From the NCBI GenBank assembly GCA_009692205.1, contig SHZR01000010.1:1-64000 (forward strand): a DNA stretch of 64,000 bases. The letters run 5' to 3'. The notes under the pieces are model-generated. The model did not search any database. It saw only the letters and a list, made by a program, of their open reading frames with translations, and was not told the DNA's origin. Position numbers and translations under genes: made by a program. The DNA comes from Gemmatimonadota bacterium. GTDB lineage: Bacteria > Gemmatimonadota > Gemmatimonadetes > Longimicrobiales > Gaopeijiaceae. Numbering within the stretch: the first letter of the stretch is position 1; each line of letters starts with the position of its first letter. Shown here piece after piece: positions 9,578 to 55,310 of this stretch.

Positions 9578-9664
9578 TTGTCTAACGGTTGTCTAGGAAT
9601 ATCTGCCGCCGTGTTCACGTTGTCAATAGTTTGTACTGGTACATAGCCGCAATAACTTTGACAA
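9578..9664. promoter_or_regulatory. Putative LitR/CarH operator in the litR-fasciclin divergent region
   Basis: Minus-strand half-sites are AGTACAA (9637-9631) and TTGACAA (9626-9620), 11 bp apart. TAGACAA (9595-9589) and TAGACAA (9584-9578) are also 11 bp apart. A plus-strand TTGACAA lies at 9658-9664. All but the first fit TnnACAA. They overlap the -35 boxes of both divergent promoters and the expected start site of the fasciclin operon, which suits repression in the dark and autoregulation. Confidence 0.75.
9598..9626 (-). promoter_or_regulatory. Promoter of the eight-gene fasciclin-to-SDR operon
   Basis: TTGACA (minus strand, 9626-9621), a 17-bp spacer and GATATT (9603-9598) are appropriately placed for transcription starting near 9591. 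The -35 box coincides with an operator half-site. Confidence 0.6.
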
Positions 9665-9686
9665 AGCGTGGGCCATCACCTACTGT
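9658..9686 (+). promoter_or_regulatory. litR promoter, probably giving a leaderless mRNA
   Basis: TTGACA (9658-9663), a 17-bp spacer and TACTGT (9681-9686) place the start point at or within a base or two of the litR ATG at 9693. No Shine-Dalgarno sequence precedes that ATG. The -35 box is part of the half-site TTGACAA. Confidence 0.6.
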
Positions 9687-9692
9687 GGTCCC

Positions 9693-10625
9693 ATGGAAGA
9701 CCTCGATACGGCACCGCGGCACCCCATTCGGGTCGTCGCCCAGCGCACCGGCCTCACGACAGCGACCATCCGGGCCTGGGAGCGGCGCTACGAGGCCGTG
9801 AACCCCGGGCGCTCGGAGGGCGGCCAGCGACTCTACTCCGACTGTGACGTCGCCCGGCTCAAGACGCTGCGAGCGCTCACCGAAGCGGGCAGGTCCATCA
9901 GCTCCGTAGCTGGGCTGCCGCCGCAGGACGCGTCGGCCCTCCTCGCGGAAGACGCAGCGTCGGCAGCTGCGACCAGCCGCCGGCTCACCACCGAGGACGC
10001 CCCCGATTCATGGACGGACCAGGCGTACGCGAGGCTGCGCGCTCTGGACGACCACGGTCTGGATCGCACACTCCGCCGCGCACTCGCAACCCTCGGGGCG
10101 AGGCGCTTCCTGCAGGGAGTAGTGACCGATCTCCTCGGCCGCGTCGGTGCCGGATGGGAGACTAGTGAGGTGACGATGGCGCAGGAGCATCTGGGATCGG
10201 CGGTCCTGGAGCGCATCCTGGCAGAGATCGCCGACCGGTCCGGAGCGGGAGATCACGAGGACCGACTCGTCGTGGCGACGCTCCCGGGCGAACGCCACGC
10301 GCTCGGGGGACGCCTGGTCGCCGCCGCCGCGGCGCTCGAGGGGTGGCGGGTGAGCTACCTCAGCACGGACCTCCCGCCTGCAGAGATCGCCCACGCGGCC
10401 ACGACGCTCGGGGCACGAGCCGTAGCCATCAGCATGGTCGCGGGCGACCAGGTCGACGCCGCAGCGCGTGACCTCGCAGCCCTGCGCGCCGAGCTCGACG
10501 CCGAGATCGACATCCTCGTGGGAGGAAGGGCTGCCGGGGCGTTGGACGCCCGCCGCCTCCCAGCGGGCATCGTCCTACTCGGTGACCTCGAGGACCTCCG
10601 GACCCGCCTGCTCGACTCGCGTTAG
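9693..10625 (+). CDS. litR: MerR-family B12-binding photoreceptor regulator (LitR/CarH type)
   Basis: This is a 310-residue regulator. An N-terminal MerR helix-turn-helix (about residues 11-80, TTATIRAWERRYEAVNPGRS) is followed by a cobalamin cap domain with the CarH signature W-x9-EH (W155, E165, H166). A B12-binding Rossmann domain follows, with the ligand motif ExHxxG (E200, H202, G205). Known relatives bind operators as tetramers when loaded with adenosylcobalamin and fall apart on illumination. The residue after W155 is Glu, where Thermus CarH has His132. It is divergent from the photolyase/lipid operon, and its own -35 overlaps a predicted binding site. Confidence 0.92.
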   Translation: MEDLDTAPRHPIRVVAQRTGLTTATIRAWERRYEAVNPGRSEGGQRLYSDCDVARLKTLRALTEAGRSISSVAGLPPQDASALLAEDAASAAATSRRLTTEDAPDSWTDQAYARLRALDDHGLDRTLRRALATLGARRFLQGVVTDLLGRVGAGWETSEVTMAQEHLGSAVLERILAEIADRSGAGDHEDRLVVATLPGERHALGGRLVAAAAALEGWRVSYLSTDLPPAEIAHAATTLGARAVAISMVAGDQVDAAARDLAALRAELDAEIDILVGGRAAGALDARRLPAGIVLLGDLEDLRTRLLDSR

Positions 10626-48502: not shown

Positions 48503-48524
48503 CGCTCAGCAGGTAGAAGGACAC

Positions 48525-48560
48525 GAGCCGCGGGCGGGTCGAAAGACCAGCCCGCGGCTC
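48525..48560 (+). terminator. Hairpin with GAAA tetraloop after the haem-copper gene
   Basis: GAGCCGCGGGC (48525-48535) pairs with GCCCGCGGCTC (48550-48560), and GGTC-GAAA-GACC closes the top, giving about 15 bp capped by a GNRA loop. No T-tract follows, so termination efficiency is uncertain. Confidence 0.6.
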
Positions 48561-48563
48561 GAT

Positions 48564-48597
48564 GCTTTGGGGCACGTCAGCCTTGACGCCCCAAAGC
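48564..48597 (+). other. Second hairpin / inverted repeat overlapping the his promoter region
   Basis: GCTTTGGGG (48564-48572) pairs with CCCCAAAGC (48589-48597), and CGTCA (48575-48579) with TGACG (48584-48588). It overlaps the likely his -35 box. It may be a terminator for the upstream gene or an operator. Confidence 0.5.
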
Positions 48598-48611
48598 CCC
48601 CACCGCAACTT
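48583..48611 (+). promoter_or_regulatory. Candidate his operon promoter
   Basis: TTGACG (48583-48588), a 17-bp spacer and CAACTT (48606-48611) would start transcription a few nt before the leader-peptide ATG at 48621. The -10 is weak and the true start could lie further upstream. Confidence 0.4.
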
Positions 48612-48620
48612 GGGCGTCCT

Positions 48621-48698
48621 ATGAACACTAGGATCCACGTCCGGCACCATCATCATCACGCGGCCCACACGGGTTGCGGAAAGGTCGTGCGCGCTTAG
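48621..48698 (+). CDS. hisL: his operon leader peptide
   Basis: The 25-codon frame has seven histidines: residue 6, a run of five at 9-13, and residue 16. It ends with TAG at 48696-48698. It stands about 100 nt before hisG and is followed by a terminator with a T8 tract. Stalling at the His run when charged tRNA-His is scarce would control that terminator. The ATG has no Shine-Dalgarno sequence, so it may be read from a near-leaderless mRNA. Confidence 0.88.
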   Translation: MNTRIHVRHHHHHAAHTGCGKVVRA

Positions 48699-48736
48699 GA
48701 CGTAGAATCCCAGAGCAGGCACCCACCGCGGCCCGT
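48669..48736 (+). promoter_or_regulatory. his antiterminator pairing
   Basis: ACGGGTTGCGG (48669-48679, leader codons 17-20) is complementary over 11 bp, with two G-U pairs, to CCGCGGCCCGT (48726-48736). That second segment is the left arm of the terminator, so the two structures exclude each other. A ribosome stalled on His9-His12 would leave 48669-48679 free. Confidence 0.7.
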
Positions 48737-48760
48737 CAGAGACGGGGCGCGGTTTTTTTT
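48726..48760 (+). terminator. his attenuator terminator
   Basis: CCGCGGCCCGTC (48726-48737) and GACGGGGCGCGG (48741-48752) pair with one central G-G mismatch around the loop AGA, and T8 follows at 48753-48760. It lies between the leader peptide and hisG, where it can stop transcription before the operon. Confidence 0.88.
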
Positions 48761-48795: not shown

Positions 48796-49668
48796 ATGAC
48801 TAGACCGATGCGTATCGCACTCCCGAGCAAGGGACGCCTCTCCGAGCGGGCGCTGCAGCTCTTGGAGCTGGCGGGGCTACGACCGGCGTTCGCGGCCGAA
48901 CGCGCTTTGGTAGCGTCCTTGGGCGAGGGCTTCGAGGCAATCTTCGTCCGCGCCCAGGACATTCCCGAGTACGTCGCAGACGGGGCGGCCGAGCTCGGGG
49001 TCACGGGCGCCGACTGCGTCGCAGAGAGCGGGCGTGAGGTCACCGAGATCCTCGATCTCGGCTTCGGCCGGTGCAGGCTCGTCGTCGCGGCGAAGGACGA
49101 GTCGGACGTACGCTCCGCGAAGCAGTTGCCGGCGGGCACGCGCGTGGCGACGTCGTTCCCTCGCTGCGCGACCCGGCACTTCGAGACCCTCGGCATCCCG
49201 ATCCGGATCGCGCCCGTGAGCGGCGCCACCGAGATCGCGCCGCACCTCGGCGTCGCGGACGTGATCGTGGACCTGACGTCCACGGGCTCGACCCTCAAGG
49301 TGAACGGCCTCCGGGAGATCGGCACCGTGCTCGAGTCGACCGCCCGCCTGGTGGGGAACGCCGCCGCCCTCGTGGACAAGAAGACCCGCCCGCTCATCGA
49401 GGAAGTCGCGACCGGGCTCGAGTCCGTGATCCGGGCGCAAGAAAAGCGCTATCTGATGGCCAACGTGCCCAAGGCCAAGCTCGACGAAGTCCGGGCGGTG
49501 ATCCCCGGACTCTCGGGTCCGACCATTGTCGAGGTGCTCGACTCGGGCACATGGGTGGCGGCACACGCGGTGGTCGATGCGGACGCGGTCTACCAGACGA
49601 TCGCGAAGCTCAAGGCGCTCGGCGCGCAGGGCATCCTCGTCACGCGCATCGAGAGGCTCATGCCGTGA
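48796..49668 (+). CDS. hisG: ATP phosphoribosyltransferase (long form)
   Basis: The 290-residue enzyme starts histidine synthesis from PRPP and ATP. It has the catalytic core (MRIALPSKGRLSERA, VTGADCVAE, ATSFPRCATRHFE, DLTSTGSTLKVNGL) and the C-terminal regulatory domain (about residues 215-290) that binds histidine for feedback inhibition, so no HisZ is needed. It follows the attenuator by 35 nt and overlaps hisD as GTGA. Confidence 0.95.
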   Translation: MTRPMRIALPSKGRLSERALQLLELAGLRPAFAAERALVASLGEGFEAIFVRAQDIPEYVADGAAELGVTGADCVAESGREVTEILDLGFGRCRLVVAAKDESDVRSAKQLPAGTRVATSFPRCATRHFETLGIPIRIAPVSGATEIAPHLGVADVIVDLTSTGSTLKVNGLREIGTVLESTARLVGNAAALVDKKTRPLIEEVATGLESVIRAQEKRYLMANVPKAKLDEVRAVIPGLSGPTIVEVLDSGTWVAAHAVVDADAVYQTIAKLKALGAQGILVTRIERLMP

Positions 49669-50966
49669 GCGCCGTGTCCCTCTTCGCGCGCGGACGCCTC
49701 CGCGACCTGAGCCCGGCGACCGTTGCGAGGCTGCTCGCGCGGACGCCGAGCGACGATGCCAGGCTGGCCGCGGCCGTGTCTGCGATCCTCGCGGACGTGA
49801 AGGCACGGGGGGACGCGGCGCTCCGCGAGATGGCCGCGAGTTTCGACCGTGTGAGCCTGGAAGCGATCGAAGTGCCGCGACGGGCGTGGCAAGACGCTGC
49901 AGCCACGCTCGACCCGCGCGTGCGCTCCGCGCTCGAACGCGCCGCCACGAATATCCGACGCTTCCACGAGGCCCAGATGCCCACCGACGTCACGCTCGAG
50001 GTCGAGCCCGGCGTGCGGATCACGCGGACATGGACGCCGCTCGGCCGCGTCGGTGTGTACGCCCCGGGTGGACGGGCGGCGTATCCCAGCTCGGTCCTTA
50101 TGGGTGTCGTCCCCGCCAAGGCCGCCGGCGTCGGGGAGGTGCTCGTGTGCTCGCCGCCCGGACCCGGCGGCCTACCGCCGCGCGAGGTGCTCGCCGCGTG
50201 CCTCATCGGGGGCGCGGACCGCCTCTTCGCGCTAGGCGGAGCCGGCGCGGTCGCCGCGCTCACGTTCGGCACGGAGAGCGTTCCTGTCGTGGACGCGGTC
50301 GTGGGGCCGGGCAACCGCTGGGTGACGGAGGCGAAGCGGCAGGTCGCCGGCGAGGTCCTGATCGACTCGCCTGCCGGCCCCTCCGAGGTGCTCGTGCTGG
50401 CGGATGCGTCCGCCGATGCGCGCCTCGTCGCGCTCGAGATCATGGCGCAGGCGGAGCACGATCCGGACGCCGCGTGCGTGCTCGTTACGACGTCCGCCGC
50501 GCTCGCAGCCGCGACCGAGGCCGAGCTCGCCGCACAGCTCGCGAGCGCGCCGCGCGCCGACATCTGCCGCCAGGCGCTCACGGCCTCCGGAGCCGTTCTG
50601 GTCGCCGACTCGCTCGACGAGGCCGTGGACTTCGCGAACCGCTACTCGCCCGAGCACCTCTCGGTCATGACCGCGTCCGCCGCCATCGATGCGCTCAGGG
50701 TGCGCACCGCCGGCACGACGTTCGTCGGACCCGCGGCCTCGGTGGCGTTCGGCGACTACATGACCGGCGCCAACCATGTCCTGCCGACCGCGGGGCGCGC
50801 GCGGAGCTTCTCCGGGCTGTCCACGATCAATTACCTGCGCTCGTTCACGATCCAGACGATCACGCCCGAGGGCGCCGCCGCGATGGTGGCGGACGTCGTC
50901 GCACTCGCCGAGGCCGAGGGGCTGCCCGCGCACGCCGCAGCAGCGCGGGCGAGGAGGGCCTCGTGA
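49665..50966 (+). CDS. hisD: Histidinol dehydrogenase
   Basis: The 433-residue zinc enzyme makes the last two oxidations to histidine. Signatures are YAPGGRAAYPSSVLMGVVPAK, VVGPGNRWVTEAKRQV, IDSPAGPSEVLVLAD, AQAEHDPDA and NRYSPEHLSVM, with zinc/catalytic His and Glu in EHD and PEHL. GTG 49665 overlaps hisG. A longer in-frame reading lies over hisG and is rejected. Confidence 0.95.
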   Translation: MSAVSLFARGRLRDLSPATVARLLARTPSDDARLAAAVSAILADVKARGDAALREMAASFDRVSLEAIEVPRRAWQDAAATLDPRVRSALERAATNIRRFHEAQMPTDVTLEVEPGVRITRTWTPLGRVGVYAPGGRAAYPSSVLMGVVPAKAAGVGEVLVCSPPGPGGLPPREVLAACLIGGADRLFALGGAGAVAALTFGTESVPVVDAVVGPGNRWVTEAKRQVAGEVLIDSPAGPSEVLVLADASADARLVALEIMAQAEHDPDAACVLVTTSAALAAATEAELAAQLASAPRADICRQALTASGAVLVADSLDEAVDFANRYSPEHLSVMTASAAIDALRVRTAGTTFVGPAASVAFGDYMTGANHVLPTAGRARSFSGLSTINYLRSFTIQTITPEGAAAMVADVVALAEAEGLPAHAAAARARRAS

Positions 50967-52036
50967 CGCCGTTCCCACGCCAGGACTACGCGTCGCTCAG
51001 GATCTACGATCCCGGCCGGCGACCGGTCCCCGTCGATCTCTCGGACAACACCAACCTCTGGGGTCCGAACCCGGGCGCGCTCGCGCGTATCCGCTCCGCA
51101 TCGCCCGACGACGTGCGGTGCTATCCCGAGGTCTACGCCGACACGCTGCGGGCCGCGGTCGCAGAGCGCTTCGGGGTATCGCCCGACTGCGTCACCACAG
51201 GGGCGGGCTCGGACGACATCCTCGACTCGGCGTTCCGCGCCGTGGCGGGCCCAGGGGACACCGTCGCGTTTCCCGCGCCCACGTTCGTGATGGCGGCCGA
51301 GCTCGCACTCGTGAACGGCATGCGGCCCCGGCCCGTGCCGTGGCGCCAGGCGCTCGCGGATCCGCGCACGCTGCTCGAAGGCGATCCGGCCGTCGTCTAC
51401 CTCTGTCGCCCCAACAACCCGACCGGCTCTCTCGCGCCAGGCGCTTGGGTGGAGCGCCTGCTCGACCTCGCCGGACCGAACGGACCTCTCGTGGTGCTCG
51501 ACGAGGCCTACGCGGACTTCGCGGGCGAGACGCTGATCGGGTGGGCCGTCGAGCGCCCCAAGCTCCTGGTCGCTCGCACGTGCTCGAAGGCGTACGGCCT
51601 CGCGGGGCTGCGGTGTGGCTTCGCGGTCGCGCGGCCAGAGGTGGCGCTCGAAGTCGAGAAGTCGCGGGGGCCCTACAAGGTCTCGCGCCTCACCGCCGCG
51701 GCGGCGGCCGTCGCCGTGCGCGACGCGGGAGGATGGTCCGCGCGCACGGTCACCGAGTGCCTCGCCAACCGGGAGCGGCTCTTCCGCGAGCTCGTGGACC
51801 GCGGACTCCGGCCCCAGGAGTCGTCCGCTAACTTCATCCTGTTCGCCGCACCGTCCGGCTCGGCCGCAGAAGACGCCATCGCGCTGCGCGAACAGGGTGT
51901 GGGCGTGCGTCCGTTCCAGGACATCCCCGAGTTGGGCGACGCGCTCCGGGTCACGGTCGCCCCGTGGCCGCTGCTCGAGCGCTTCCTCGAGGCGATGGAC
52001 CGCCGCCTGGCCGCACTCGAGGAGATCTCACGATGA
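50963..52036 (+). CDS. hisC: Histidinol-phosphate aminotransferase
   Basis: The 357-residue fold-type I PLP enzyme has VDLSDNTNLWGPNP, CRPNNPTGS, VVLDEAYADFAG, and the PLP lysine in RTCSKAYGLAGLRCGF. It transaminates imidazole-acetol phosphate. GTG 50963 overlaps hisD as GTGA and its stop overlaps hisH as ATGA. Confidence 0.94.
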   Translation: MTPFPRQDYASLRIYDPGRRPVPVDLSDNTNLWGPNPGALARIRSASPDDVRCYPEVYADTLRAAVAERFGVSPDCVTTGAGSDDILDSAFRAVAGPGDTVAFPAPTFVMAAELALVNGMRPRPVPWRQALADPRTLLEGDPAVVYLCRPNNPTGSLAPGAWVERLLDLAGPNGPLVVLDEAYADFAGETLIGWAVERPKLLVARTCSKAYGLAGLRCGFAVARPEVALEVEKSRGPYKVSRLTAAAAAVAVRDAGGWSARTVTECLANRERLFRELVDRGLRPQESSANFILFAAPSGSAAEDAIALREQGVGVRPFQDIPELGDALRVTVAPWPLLERFLEAMDRRLAALEEISR

Positions 52037-52635
52037 ACGTCGCGCTGTTCGACTACGGTGCCGGCAACCTGCACTCGCTCGGCAAGGCGCTCGAGGAAGC
52101 GGGCGCACGCGTGACCGTGACGTCCGACTGGAAGGACGCGCTCGCGCAGGACGCGCTCGTGCTCCCGGGCGTGGGCGCGTTCGGGCCGGCCGCAGCGGCG
52201 CTCCCGAAGGACCCGGCGCCCGTCCGCGACGCGCTCGCGGCGGGCATGCCCTGCCTCGGCATCTGTCTCGGTATGCAGCTTCTCTTCGATGACTCGGAGG
52301 AAGCCGCGGGCCACGGCATCGGACTGATGCCGGGCAAGGTGCGCCTCCTCGACGCCCGCATCGTCCCGCAGATGGGATGGAACGACGTCGAGACGGGGCC
52401 GGATCCGATCTTCGCCGGAGTGGAGGATCTCGTGGCGTACTTCGCGAACTCGTACGTCTGCATTCCGACCGACATCTCGGATGCGATCGCCTGGTCGGAG
52501 TACGACGGCATCCGCTCCGCCGCGGGCGCGCGGCGTTCCAACACCTGGGGCCTGCAGTTCCACCCGGAGAAGAGCTCCGGGCCCGGCCGGCGCATCATCG
52601 CCAACTTCGTCGCGCTCGCACGGGAGCCATCGTGA
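52033..52635 (+). CDS. hisH: Imidazole glycerol phosphate synthase, glutamine amidotransferase subunit
   Basis: The 200-residue class I amidotransferase feeds ammonia to HisF. The nucleophile Cys lies in LGICLGMQLLF and the His-Glu pair in LQFHPEKSS. The oxyanion segment PGVGAFG is present. ATG 52033 overlaps hisC as ATGA and the stop overlaps hisA as GTGA. Confidence 0.94.
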   Translation: MNVALFDYGAGNLHSLGKALEEAGARVTVTSDWKDALAQDALVLPGVGAFGPAAAALPKDPAPVRDALAAGMPCLGICLGMQLLFDDSEEAAGHGIGLMPGKVRLLDARIVPQMGWNDVETGPDPIFAGVEDLVAYFANSYVCIPTDISDAIAWSEYDGIRSAAGARRSNTWGLQFHPEKSSGPGRRIIANFVALAREPS

Positions 52636-53366
52636 TCGCGGCCCCGGCGGTGGACGTGAAGGGCGGGCGCTGCGTCCAGCTCGTGGGCGGACGCCCCGAC
52701 GCGGTCGCGGTCTCGCTTCCGGACCCCGTCGCGGCGGCCGACCGCTGGAGCCGTGCCGGCTTCGGCACGCTCCACATCGTGGATCTCGACGCCGCACTGG
52801 GCATGGGTGACAACCTCGACGTCATCCTCGAGGTGATTCGCACGACGGCTGCCGAGACACAGGTCGGAGGAGGCATCCGGGACGATGCGCGCGTCGAGAA
52901 GCTGCTCGACGCGGGTGCCGACCGCATCGTCGTGGGCACGAGGGCGCTCGACGACCCCGAGTGGCTCGCGCGACTGTCCGCGCGGTACCCGAGCCGCGTG
53001 ATGGTCGCGCTCGACACGCGCGACGGTCGCATCCTGCGCAGGGGATGGACCGAGGAGTCGCACCTGGAGCTCGCGACGTACCTTCCTGAGCTCGCCGCGC
53101 TCCCGCTCGCCGGCATCCTGTCGACCAACGTGGCGCGGGAGGGTCGTCTCCAGGGGATCGACCGCGAGGCGTGTCGCGAGGTCATTGTAAACAGCCCGCA
53201 CCCCGTCTGGGCCTCCGGGGGAGTCACCACGACCGACGAGCTCGAGTACCTGGACGGCACGGGTGCGGCGGGCGTGGTGCTCGGAATGGCGCTCTACACG
53301 GATACCTTGAACGCAAGCGACGTCGCGGCCCGCTGGGGGCGCGCAAACACGGCGAAGAACCGATGA
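52632..53366 (+). CDS. hisA: ProFAR isomerase (phosphoribosylformimino-AICAR-P isomerase)
   Basis: The 244-residue TIM barrel has the N-terminal [14 protein letters not shown] with the catalytic Asp, [30 protein letters not shown], and a C-terminal [15 protein letters not shown]. The order after hisH and before hisB and hisF supports HisA rather than HisF. GTG 52632 overlaps hisH. Confidence 0.92.
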
Positions 53367-53902
53367 GCAAGCTGAAGAGAGAGACGAAGGAGACGCGCAT
53401 CGTCGCCGACGTGCGCATCGGCAGCGGCAAAGCGAAGGTCCAGACCGGCGATCAGTTCCTGACGCACATGGTCGAGACGCTCGCGCGCTACGCGGGAGTC
53501 GACATCGAGCTCGAGGCAACCGGCGATCTCCGTCACCACCTCGTCGAGGACGTCGCCATCGTGCTGGGGCTCGCCTTGAAGGACGAGGTGCCCGAGCGCT
53601 GCGCGCGATACGGGTGGGCCGAGGTCCCCATGGACGAGGCGCTGGCTTCCGCCGCGATCGATATCGGTGGTCGGCCCTACTACGTGGGCCGGCTGCCGTC
53701 GAGGCTGTACGCGCACTTCCTGCACTCGTTCGCCACGAACCTGGACGCGACGCTCCACGTGCGGGTGCTCCGGGGCAACGACCGCCACCACAAGGTGGAG
53801 GCGGCCATCAAGGCGACCGGGCTCGCGCTCAGGCAGGCGCTCACCGAGGGCGATCAGGTGTTCAGCACGAAGGGCTCCGTGAAGATCGAGCGGATCGGCT
53901 GA
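53363..53902 (+). CDS. hisB: Imidazoleglycerol-phosphate dehydratase (divergent)
   Basis: The 179-residue enzyme dehydrates imidazole glycerol phosphate. It keeps the metal ligands (His in FLTHM; His-His-Glu in RHHLVED; His in HFLHSFA; His-His-Glu in RHHKVEA). The usual DDHHTVED and FFDHM are altered to LRHHLVED and FLTHM. It has no fused histidinol phosphatase. It overlaps hisA (ATGA) and hisF (1 nt). Confidence 0.88.
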
Positions 53903-54690
53903 TGCTCCGCCCGCGCGTGATCGTGTGCCTCGACGTGAAGGACGGGCGCGTCGTGAAAGGCACACAGTTCCAGAACCTGCGCGACGTCGGCGACCCGGTG
54001 GAGCTCGCCACGCGCTACGAGGCCGAGGGCGCGGACGAGGTGGTCTTCCTCGACGTGTCCGCGTCCAAAGAAGCGCGCGGCACGCTGCTCGAAGTCGTCC
54101 GCCGCACGGCCGAGAGGCTCTTCGTACCGCTCACGGTCGGCGGCGGCGTCCGCTCGGCCGCCGACATCGGACCGCTCCTGCGCGCCGGCGCCGACAAGAT
54201 CAGCGTCAACACCGCCGCGGTTCGTGACCCCGGTTTGCTGTCGCTCGGCGCGGAGAGATTCGGCAGCCAGTGCATCGTCGCGAGCATCGATGCGCTGCGC
54301 GAGAACGAGAGGTGGCGCTGCTACACCCACGGCGGCACCGAGCGGACGGAGCTGGATGCGGTCGAGTGGGCCGCCGAGTGCGAGGCGCGTGGTGCCGGAG
54401 AGATCCTGCTGACCTCGATCGATCAGGACGGCGCGCGGAACGGCTACGACCTCGAGCTCACGAGACAGGTCGCCGACAGCGTTCCGGTCCCCGTCATCGC
54501 GTCGGGCGGTGCCGGAGGGGCCGAGCACCTGCGCGACGCGTTCACCGACGGGCACGCGTCCGCGGCACTGGTCGCGGGCATCTTGCACGACGGTCTCACC
54601 ACAGTGGGCGCGCTCAAGTCGGCGCTCAACGGCTGGGGCATCGCCGTGCGACCGGTCGCCAACCTCCGCCCCAGCGAGGCCCTCTCGTGA
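53902..54690 (+). CDS. hisF: Imidazole glycerol phosphate synthase cyclase subunit
   Basis: The 262-residue TIM barrel pairs with HisH. It has [19 protein letters not shown] with catalytic Asp near residue 10, [37 protein letters not shown] (second catalytic Asp) and [19 protein letters not shown] 53902 overlaps hisB by one base and the stop overlaps hisI as GTGA. Confidence 0.95.
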
Positions 54691-55310
54691 CCGACCGTAC
54701 GCTCTCGACCGTCTCCGACCTGGACGCGCTCGACTTCGACCGCTCGGGCGGGCTCCTTCCCGTAGTCGTGCAGGACGCCGCGACCGGCGAGGCGCTCATG
54801 CTCGCGTTCGCGAACCGCGCGGCTCTCGAGAAGACGCTCGAGACGGGCCAGATGCATTTCTGGTCGCGAAGCCGCAACGAACTTTGGCGAAAGGGTGAGA
54901 CGAGCGGCAACACGCTCGCACTCGTCTCGCTGCACACCGACTGCGATTCCGACACCGTGCTCGCGCGCGTGACCCCCGCAGGGCCCACGTGCCACACGGG
55001 TGAGCGGAGCTGTTTCGGCGACGGCGCCGATGTCGCGGTCGCCGCGCTGGCCCGCCTGGACCGCACGCTCGCCACGCGCGAGCGCGACCGGCCCGAAGGC
55101 AGCTACACCGTGCGCTTGCTCGACGACCCGAACCTCCGCCTGAAGAAGCTGGGCGAGGAGACTGCCGAGCTGATCGCGGCGCTCGCCACTCGCGACTCCA
55201 AGCGTGCGGTAGAAGAAGCGGCCGACCTCGTCTACCACGTGCTCGTGGCGCTGCGGGCGACCGGGGTCGACGTGTCCGCGCTGCTCGAGGAGATGGATCG
55301 GCGGGCATGA
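54687..55310 (+). CDS. hisI: Bifunctional phosphoribosyl-AMP cyclohydrolase / phosphoribosyl-ATP pyrophosphatase
   Basis: The 207-residue HisIE fusion catalyses steps two and three of the pathway. The HisI domain (about residues 1-115) has [21 protein letters not shown] and the zinc cysteines in HTDCDSD and [10 protein letters not shown]. The HisE domain (about 120-207) has [17 protein letters not shown] and [12 protein letters not shown]. It overlaps hisF and the ABC exporter gene. Confidence 0.95.

Follow-up and report, generated by a model that had tools for sequence, protein, structure and literature searches.

A predicted ribosome-mediated attenuator, probably leaderless, upstream of the his operon in a Gemmatimonadota bacterium

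The his operon and its leader region

The window that we analyzed is a stretch of 64,000 nucleotides from a Gemmatimonadota bacterium. It contains a complete his operon (Table 1), of which hisG is the first gene and starts 98 nt after the stop codon of a short leader ORF. The best named database relatives of this hisG are found in Gemmatimonadota metagenome genomes and are at most 90% identical to it. A first-pass annotation had described the leader as a 25-codon frame with seven His codons. That frame is indeed present, and the window therefore contains a short ORF with repeated control codons matching the product of the operon that follows.

The regions upstream of hisG of 98 relatives and of named contigs were compared; most of the genomes are draft or metagenome assemblies. 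The count covers 80 leaders in Gemmatimonadota-related genomes; 79 of them precede hisG and the remaining one precedes hisC. A His-rich ORF recurs in these 80 leaders, far more than chance would explain, and His accounts in them for 464 of the 2110 codons (22%). The two His codons are used almost equally (CAC 230, CAT 234), which indicates that it is the amino acid and not the bases that is conserved.

The leaders are preceded by a promoter placed for a start at the start codon. In 77 of the 80 leaders, the motif TTGAC is located 34–40 nt upstream of the start codon. This figure is slightly favourable, because TTGA earned candidate start codons a bonus when they were selected, so that its spacing partly determined the choice. 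The spacer is 17 or 18 nt long, and a TA[G/C]CTT-type -10 element ends 4–10 nt before the start codon. The leader starts also lack a Shine-Dalgarno sequence: the Shine-Dalgarno energy is -1.65 at leader starts, versus -4.94 at hisG and -2.32 in shuffled sequences. Together, promoter spacing and the missing Shine-Dalgarno sequence predict a transcript that begins at, or a few bases from, the AUG. For the window, this start would lie at about 48618–48621, no more than about 3 nt from the ATG, and the leader is thus likely to be leaderless.

A further promoter of the leaderless type (TTGAC-spacer-TANNNT-ATG) is present at positions 9658–9695 of the window. This pattern occurs at ten sites in the genome, versus none for the reversed pattern, and leaderless starts may thus be common in this genome. 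Two adjacent, very stable hairpins (-59.3 kcal/mol, z -9) occupy 48524–48597, in the interval separating the leader from the gene upstream of it; the second overlaps the -35 element and was not seen in near relatives.

Table 1. Features of the his leader region and operon in the window, and leaders with other control codons in relatives
Feature	Position or locus	Strand	Remarks
-35 element TTGACG	48583–48588	+	TTGAC conserved relative to the start codon in 77/80 leaders (slightly favourable, see text)
-10 element CAACTT (family consensus TA[G/C]CTT)	48606–48611	+	17-nt spacer; 9 nt before ATG
Leader ORF MNTRIHVRHHHHHAAHTGCGKVVRA, then stop	48621–48698	+	ATG 48621, TAG 48696–48698; 25 codons; no Shine-Dalgarno
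Outer stem, 5' half (GGATCCACGTCC)	48631–48642	+	Minimum-energy fold; modest support
His control codon run CAC CAT CAT CAT CAC	48645–48659	+	Five in a row
Strand 1 (CGCGGCCC), 5' arm of protector hairpin	48659–48666	+	Pairs with 48671–48678
Strand 2 (CACGGGTTGCGG)	48668–48679	+	Alternates between strand 1 and strand 3
Outer stem, 3' half (GGACGTAGAATCC)	48698–48710	+	Adjoins leader stop codon; minimum-energy fold
Strand 3 (CCGCGGCCCGTC)	48726–48737	+	Antiterminator with strand 2, terminator with strand 4
Strand 4 (GACGGGGCGCGG), terminator 3' arm	48741–48752	+	92% of cells paired, 7 double-change pairs
T8 tract of intrinsic terminator	48753–48760	+	Read from sequence
hisG, ATP phosphoribosyltransferase, long form	48796–49668	+	TIGR00070 (8.8e-64), TIGR03455
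hisD, hisC, hisH, hisA, hisB, hisF, hisIE	49665–55310	+	NCBIfam matches
Phe-rich leaders before pheA	L225, L228, L233		Other Gemmatimonadota
Tyr/Phe-rich leaders before DAHP synthase	L219, L220, L222, L229, L230		Other Gemmatimonadota
Tyr-rich leaders before phenylalanine 4-hydroxylase	L226, L231, L232		Other Gemmatimonadota
Thr-rich leaders before aspartokinase (L221) and homoserine kinase (L224)	L221, L224		Other Gemmatimonadota

Alternative RNA structures and the proposed mechanism

An intrinsic terminator is located between the leader ORF and hisG. It consists of CCGCGGCCCGTC-AGA-GACGGGGCGCGG (48726–48752) followed by the T8 tract, as the earlier annotation had proposed for 48726–48760. 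The 50-nt segment that contains it has a folding energy of -24.3 kcal/mol (z -3.6), which none of 200 shuffled sequences equalled. The 11-bp complementarity noted earlier between positions 48669–48679 (ACGGGTTGCGG) and 48726–48736 (CCGCGGCCCGT), with two G.U pairs, was also found, and it makes strand 3 the shared partner of an antiterminator (2:3) and the terminator (3:4). That annotation had called the attenuator complete; its leader peptide, antiterminator and terminator were borne out, but it had missed a protector hairpin in which strand 1 pairs with strand 2. Strand 2 lies within the ORF, about 48–60 nt from its start in most leaders.

Covariation was analyzed in an alignment of 48 leaders, and all three helices are supported by compensated base changes. 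For the terminator, 7 pairs show double changes and 92% of cells are paired (0/500 shuffles). In the protector, 83% of cells are paired, with 37 double-change cells and 4 pairs with double changes, and its covariation score of 0.343, versus 0.197 in shuffles, was reached in 0/500. The mutually exclusive antiterminator also covaries, more weakly than the other helices: 79% of cells are paired, versus 34–45% when the strands are slid, with 4 double-change pairs (6/500 shuffles); covariation is limited here because strand 3 is nearly invariant. Across 57 genomes, pairing of strand 2 is stronger with the strand 3 of the same genome (-27.19) than with permuted partners (-24.53, sd 0.39; 0/2000), and within family f1 the same comparison gave 1/2000. 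The outer stem is supported by 12 near relatives, in which the own partner beats permuted partners (p=0.003). No signal was obtained for a separate hairpin across the stop codon (mean z -0.09; 4/80 leaders).

We then masked strand 1 and everything 5' of it in silico. In the window transcript ending at strand 3, the 2:3 pairing rose from 0.01 to 0.90; over 48 genomes its mean rose from 0.19 to 0.86, with a rise of more than 0.3 in 39 of the 48. The protector pairing would thus be open to disruption by a ribosome stalled at the control codons, as both the covariation and the masking suggest. In some relatives (e.g., L028 and L043), the protector reaches into the His codons, which pair with GTGGTGG, so that stalling at any one of them would open it. 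For the full window transcript at equilibrium with strand 1 masked, the terminator (0.76) is still favoured over the antiterminator (0.31); antitermination must therefore be kinetic, and in this dependence on timing the window leader resembles classical attenuators. In the window transcript ending at strand 3, the 1:2 hairpin alone does not prevail over 2:3, and holding strand 2 in 1:2 requires the outer stem or formation of 3:4.

These observations are consistent with the following mechanism. RNA polymerase would start on the leader ATG or only a few bases from it, so that ribosomes would load on a leaderless 5' end. When charged His-tRNA is ample, the ribosome would traverse the His codons and pass strand 2; strands 1 and 2 would pair behind it, leaving strand 3 free to form the 3:4 terminator, and transcription would stop at 48753–48760. 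When His-tRNA is scarce, the ribosome would stall in the His run and cover strand 1; strand 2 would then pair with strand 3 as soon as this is transcribed, ahead of strand 4, and the polymerase would enter hisG. The first-pass annotation had seen a weak point in a ribosome resting at the stop codon, which would reach only the edge of the antiterminator strand. This difficulty stems from taking that ribosome as the blocker, and the overlooked 1:2 hairpin, which would sequester strand 2 after the ribosome has passed, answers it.

We are therefore highly confident in the prediction that the element in the window controls the hisGDCHABF-IE operon by ribosome-mediated transcription attenuation. An attenuation mechanism is very likely in view of the elements, their conservation, the compensatory changes and the in silico switching; transcription start, stalling, readthrough and the histidine response are steps that we infer.

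Leaders in relatives and before other operons

A His-rich short ORF precedes hisG in families f1, f2, f4, f5, f6 and f7, and a terminator follows nearly all of these ORFs. Neither a His-rich leader nor a convincing terminator was found at the 16 hisG loci of family f3 (L054–L068 and L071), which encode a shorter, divergent HisG, and no Rfam element was found in the 15 of its hisG loci that were scanned. Family f3 belongs to the same order as the window genome. The archaeal hisG loci likewise contain no His-rich ORF and no terminator. In genome G031, with its split his operon, hisC carries its own leader copy (L136). The expectation that related genomes keep the His-rich frame thus held upstream of hisG across the class, and, judged by sequence, the his leader device is kept across the phylum; the earlier suggestion of ribosome-mediated his attenuation in this lineage is supported by the kept frames and the compensated stems.

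Two contigs labelled Gammaproteobacteria and Myxococcales (L094 and L098) contain the same hisG and leader and are probably mislabelled bins. The closest long-form HisG proteins outside Gemmatimonadota (L104–L118) are mostly archaeal (Methanomassiliicoccales, Methanocellales) in a scan biased to the query's own peptides, a kinship that hints at an old gene transfer.

Genomes lacking the his operon provide a natural deletion experiment in the form of relic leaders. hisG and hisD were not detected in G009 (94% complete) and G053 (99% complete), both of which contain a decayed but recognisable his leader (L198 and L199, respectively). In both, a His codon has changed to CAG. The -35 element and terminator are spoilt in G009, where the relic now precedes a transporter gene that in the window follows the his operon, and the T tract is gone in G053. 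The leaders of the congeners G275 and G024, which have the his operon, are intact.

A covariance model (R1) built from the His leaders only also retrieved leaders for other amino acids. In relatives, pheA, aroF, phhA and thrA are preceded by the cassette with other control codons (Table 1). The downstream genes were named by inspection of their protein sequences; only the DAHP synthase assignment was backed by a family search across the class, which gave matching loci. Most non-His leaders share the promoter-to-AUG spacing, an ACGGGnCG strand 2 in which CGGG usually falls at nt 56 of the ORF, and a GCGGCCCGTG terminator. A wider scan found more cases before pheA and aroF and many loci without a leader, so that the distribution is patchy. 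Weak R1 matches (about 29–30 bits, in the window's own and related genomes) were considered as His leaders and rejected, since both that were checked consist of 5S rRNA followed by a generic terminator (L153, L197); the R1 tally of 126 of 297 genomes therefore overstates the number of His leaders, and our conclusions on these draw solely on loci that were inspected. A strict combined cassette pattern was set aside because it was too narrow and picked up coding repeats of family f4.

The window genome also contains a Leu-rich leaderless leader (MLMNTLAIGLLLSGALRLLGLLTELDQRACQGVRTR, then stop; L203:1301-1466, contig C19) with TTGACG 37 nt upstream of its ATG start codon; its terminator immediately precedes leuA. 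No leader was found in this genome at its trpE-type genes (L201, L202) or thrS (L216). In another genome (G223, L196), a short ORF with seven consecutive Thr codons and a possible Shine-Dalgarno sequence is followed by a terminator before thrS.

We somewhat favour the view that Gemmatimonadota contain one modular leaderless cassette with swappable control codons for his, phe, aromatic, Tyr-forming and thr genes. It would combine a fixed promoter-to-AUG spacing with a control-codon run, a strand 2 encoding Thr-Gly-Arg (ACGGGnCGn, with CGGG mostly near nt 50–56) and a matching GCGGCCCGT terminator. Its presence before several pathways would then, with the same moderate degree of belief, reflect one RNA switch re-tuned by codon changes only. 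The modular nature of the cassette is likely as judged from its sequence features, and the shared terminator could also reflect convergence on a standard type, since GGCCCGT..ACGGGCC hairpins occur after 5S rRNA in the window genome as well (L153).

The same features bear on other readings of the locus. The ORF could encode a functional His-rich small protein, for instance a metal-binding one, or a nascent-chain arrest peptide, with the terminator being independent of it. Short His-rich peptides can bind metals, and families f1 and f2 show a recurrent C-terminal end (TGR.., V[CR]A). However, TGR/TGC is the translation of strand 2, the other residues vary freely, the control residues switch to Phe, Tyr or Thr where the downstream genes belong to those pathways, and the ORF decays once the his operon is lost, all of which make this reading very improbable. 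We give equally little credence to a terminator that merely ends upstream transcription, with the hisG promoter after 48760 and the leader incidental: the 5S rRNA hairpins show that such terminators also serve elsewhere, but a complete conserved promoter precedes the leader, and strand 2, complementary to strand 3, is conserved within the ORF. Least probable of all is the same attenuator with termination enforced by pairing of strand 2 (GTTGCGG) with the upstream CCGCAAC (48603–48609), the second pairing that had been suggested earlier, because this segment overlaps the -10 element upstream of the predicted start and so is probably untranscribed, its 7-bp match in L003 and L004 (partly G.U in L008) is lost in the congeners L005, L006 and L007, and the 1:2 hairpin with its compensatory changes fills that role.

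Comparison with known attenuators

Ribosome-mediated attenuation, the preferred reading of the leader, was compared with known systems. No Rfam family matches the leader at the gathering threshold, and the enteric his leader (RF00514, His_leader, hisL) gave no match at the gathering score or at relaxed thresholds. For the T-box (RF00230), neither the window nor any of 20 control loci that lack a leader gave a gathering-threshold match, and 20 leader loci gave none at E<=0.5. T-boxes share amino acid-responsive transcription termination with the present element, which instead contains a translated ORF with control codons.

The enteric his leader has a six-segment layout. It shares with the window leader a run of His codons in a short ORF before hisG, an intrinsic terminator and an antiterminator, but here the layout is a simple one of four strands with a leaderless start, and strand 2 lies within an ORF that extends 12–20 nt beyond it.

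The first-pass annotation had regarded his attenuation as unusual outside enteric bacteria. This is only partly right, since His-leader attenuators have been predicted in several groups of Firmicutes (PMC9413887), among them those of hisZ and hisS* in Bacillus (PMC2965389). These leaders share the His-rich peptide, the terminator and antiterminator, their discovery by comparison and the lack of an RF00514 match, but they belong to another phylum and are likened here by their described features. Among the features noted for them, a leaderless promoter geometry does not figure.

Leaderless polycysteine ORFs of mycobacteria are leader-peptide attenuators. A leaderless leader ORF is also described for trpL of S. 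meliloti (PMC7298713). Both share with the window leader an ORF that begins at the 5' end of the transcript, but they concern other amino acids and other phyla. We know of no cassette common to many operons for either.

A literature search joining Gemmatimonadota with leader-peptide attenuation, with most subscription journals outside its reach, found no paper. If our reading is correct, ribosome-mediated attenuation is not confined to enteric bacteria but is an established mode of regulation in a little-studied phylum, and it would be able to run on leaderless mRNAs, with ribosome loading tied to the first transcribed bases. A shared cassette with exchangeable codons would open the evolution and re-targeting of attenuators to direct study, and its signature would help to annotate the amino acid operons of these genomes, aromatic and Tyr-forming genes among them.
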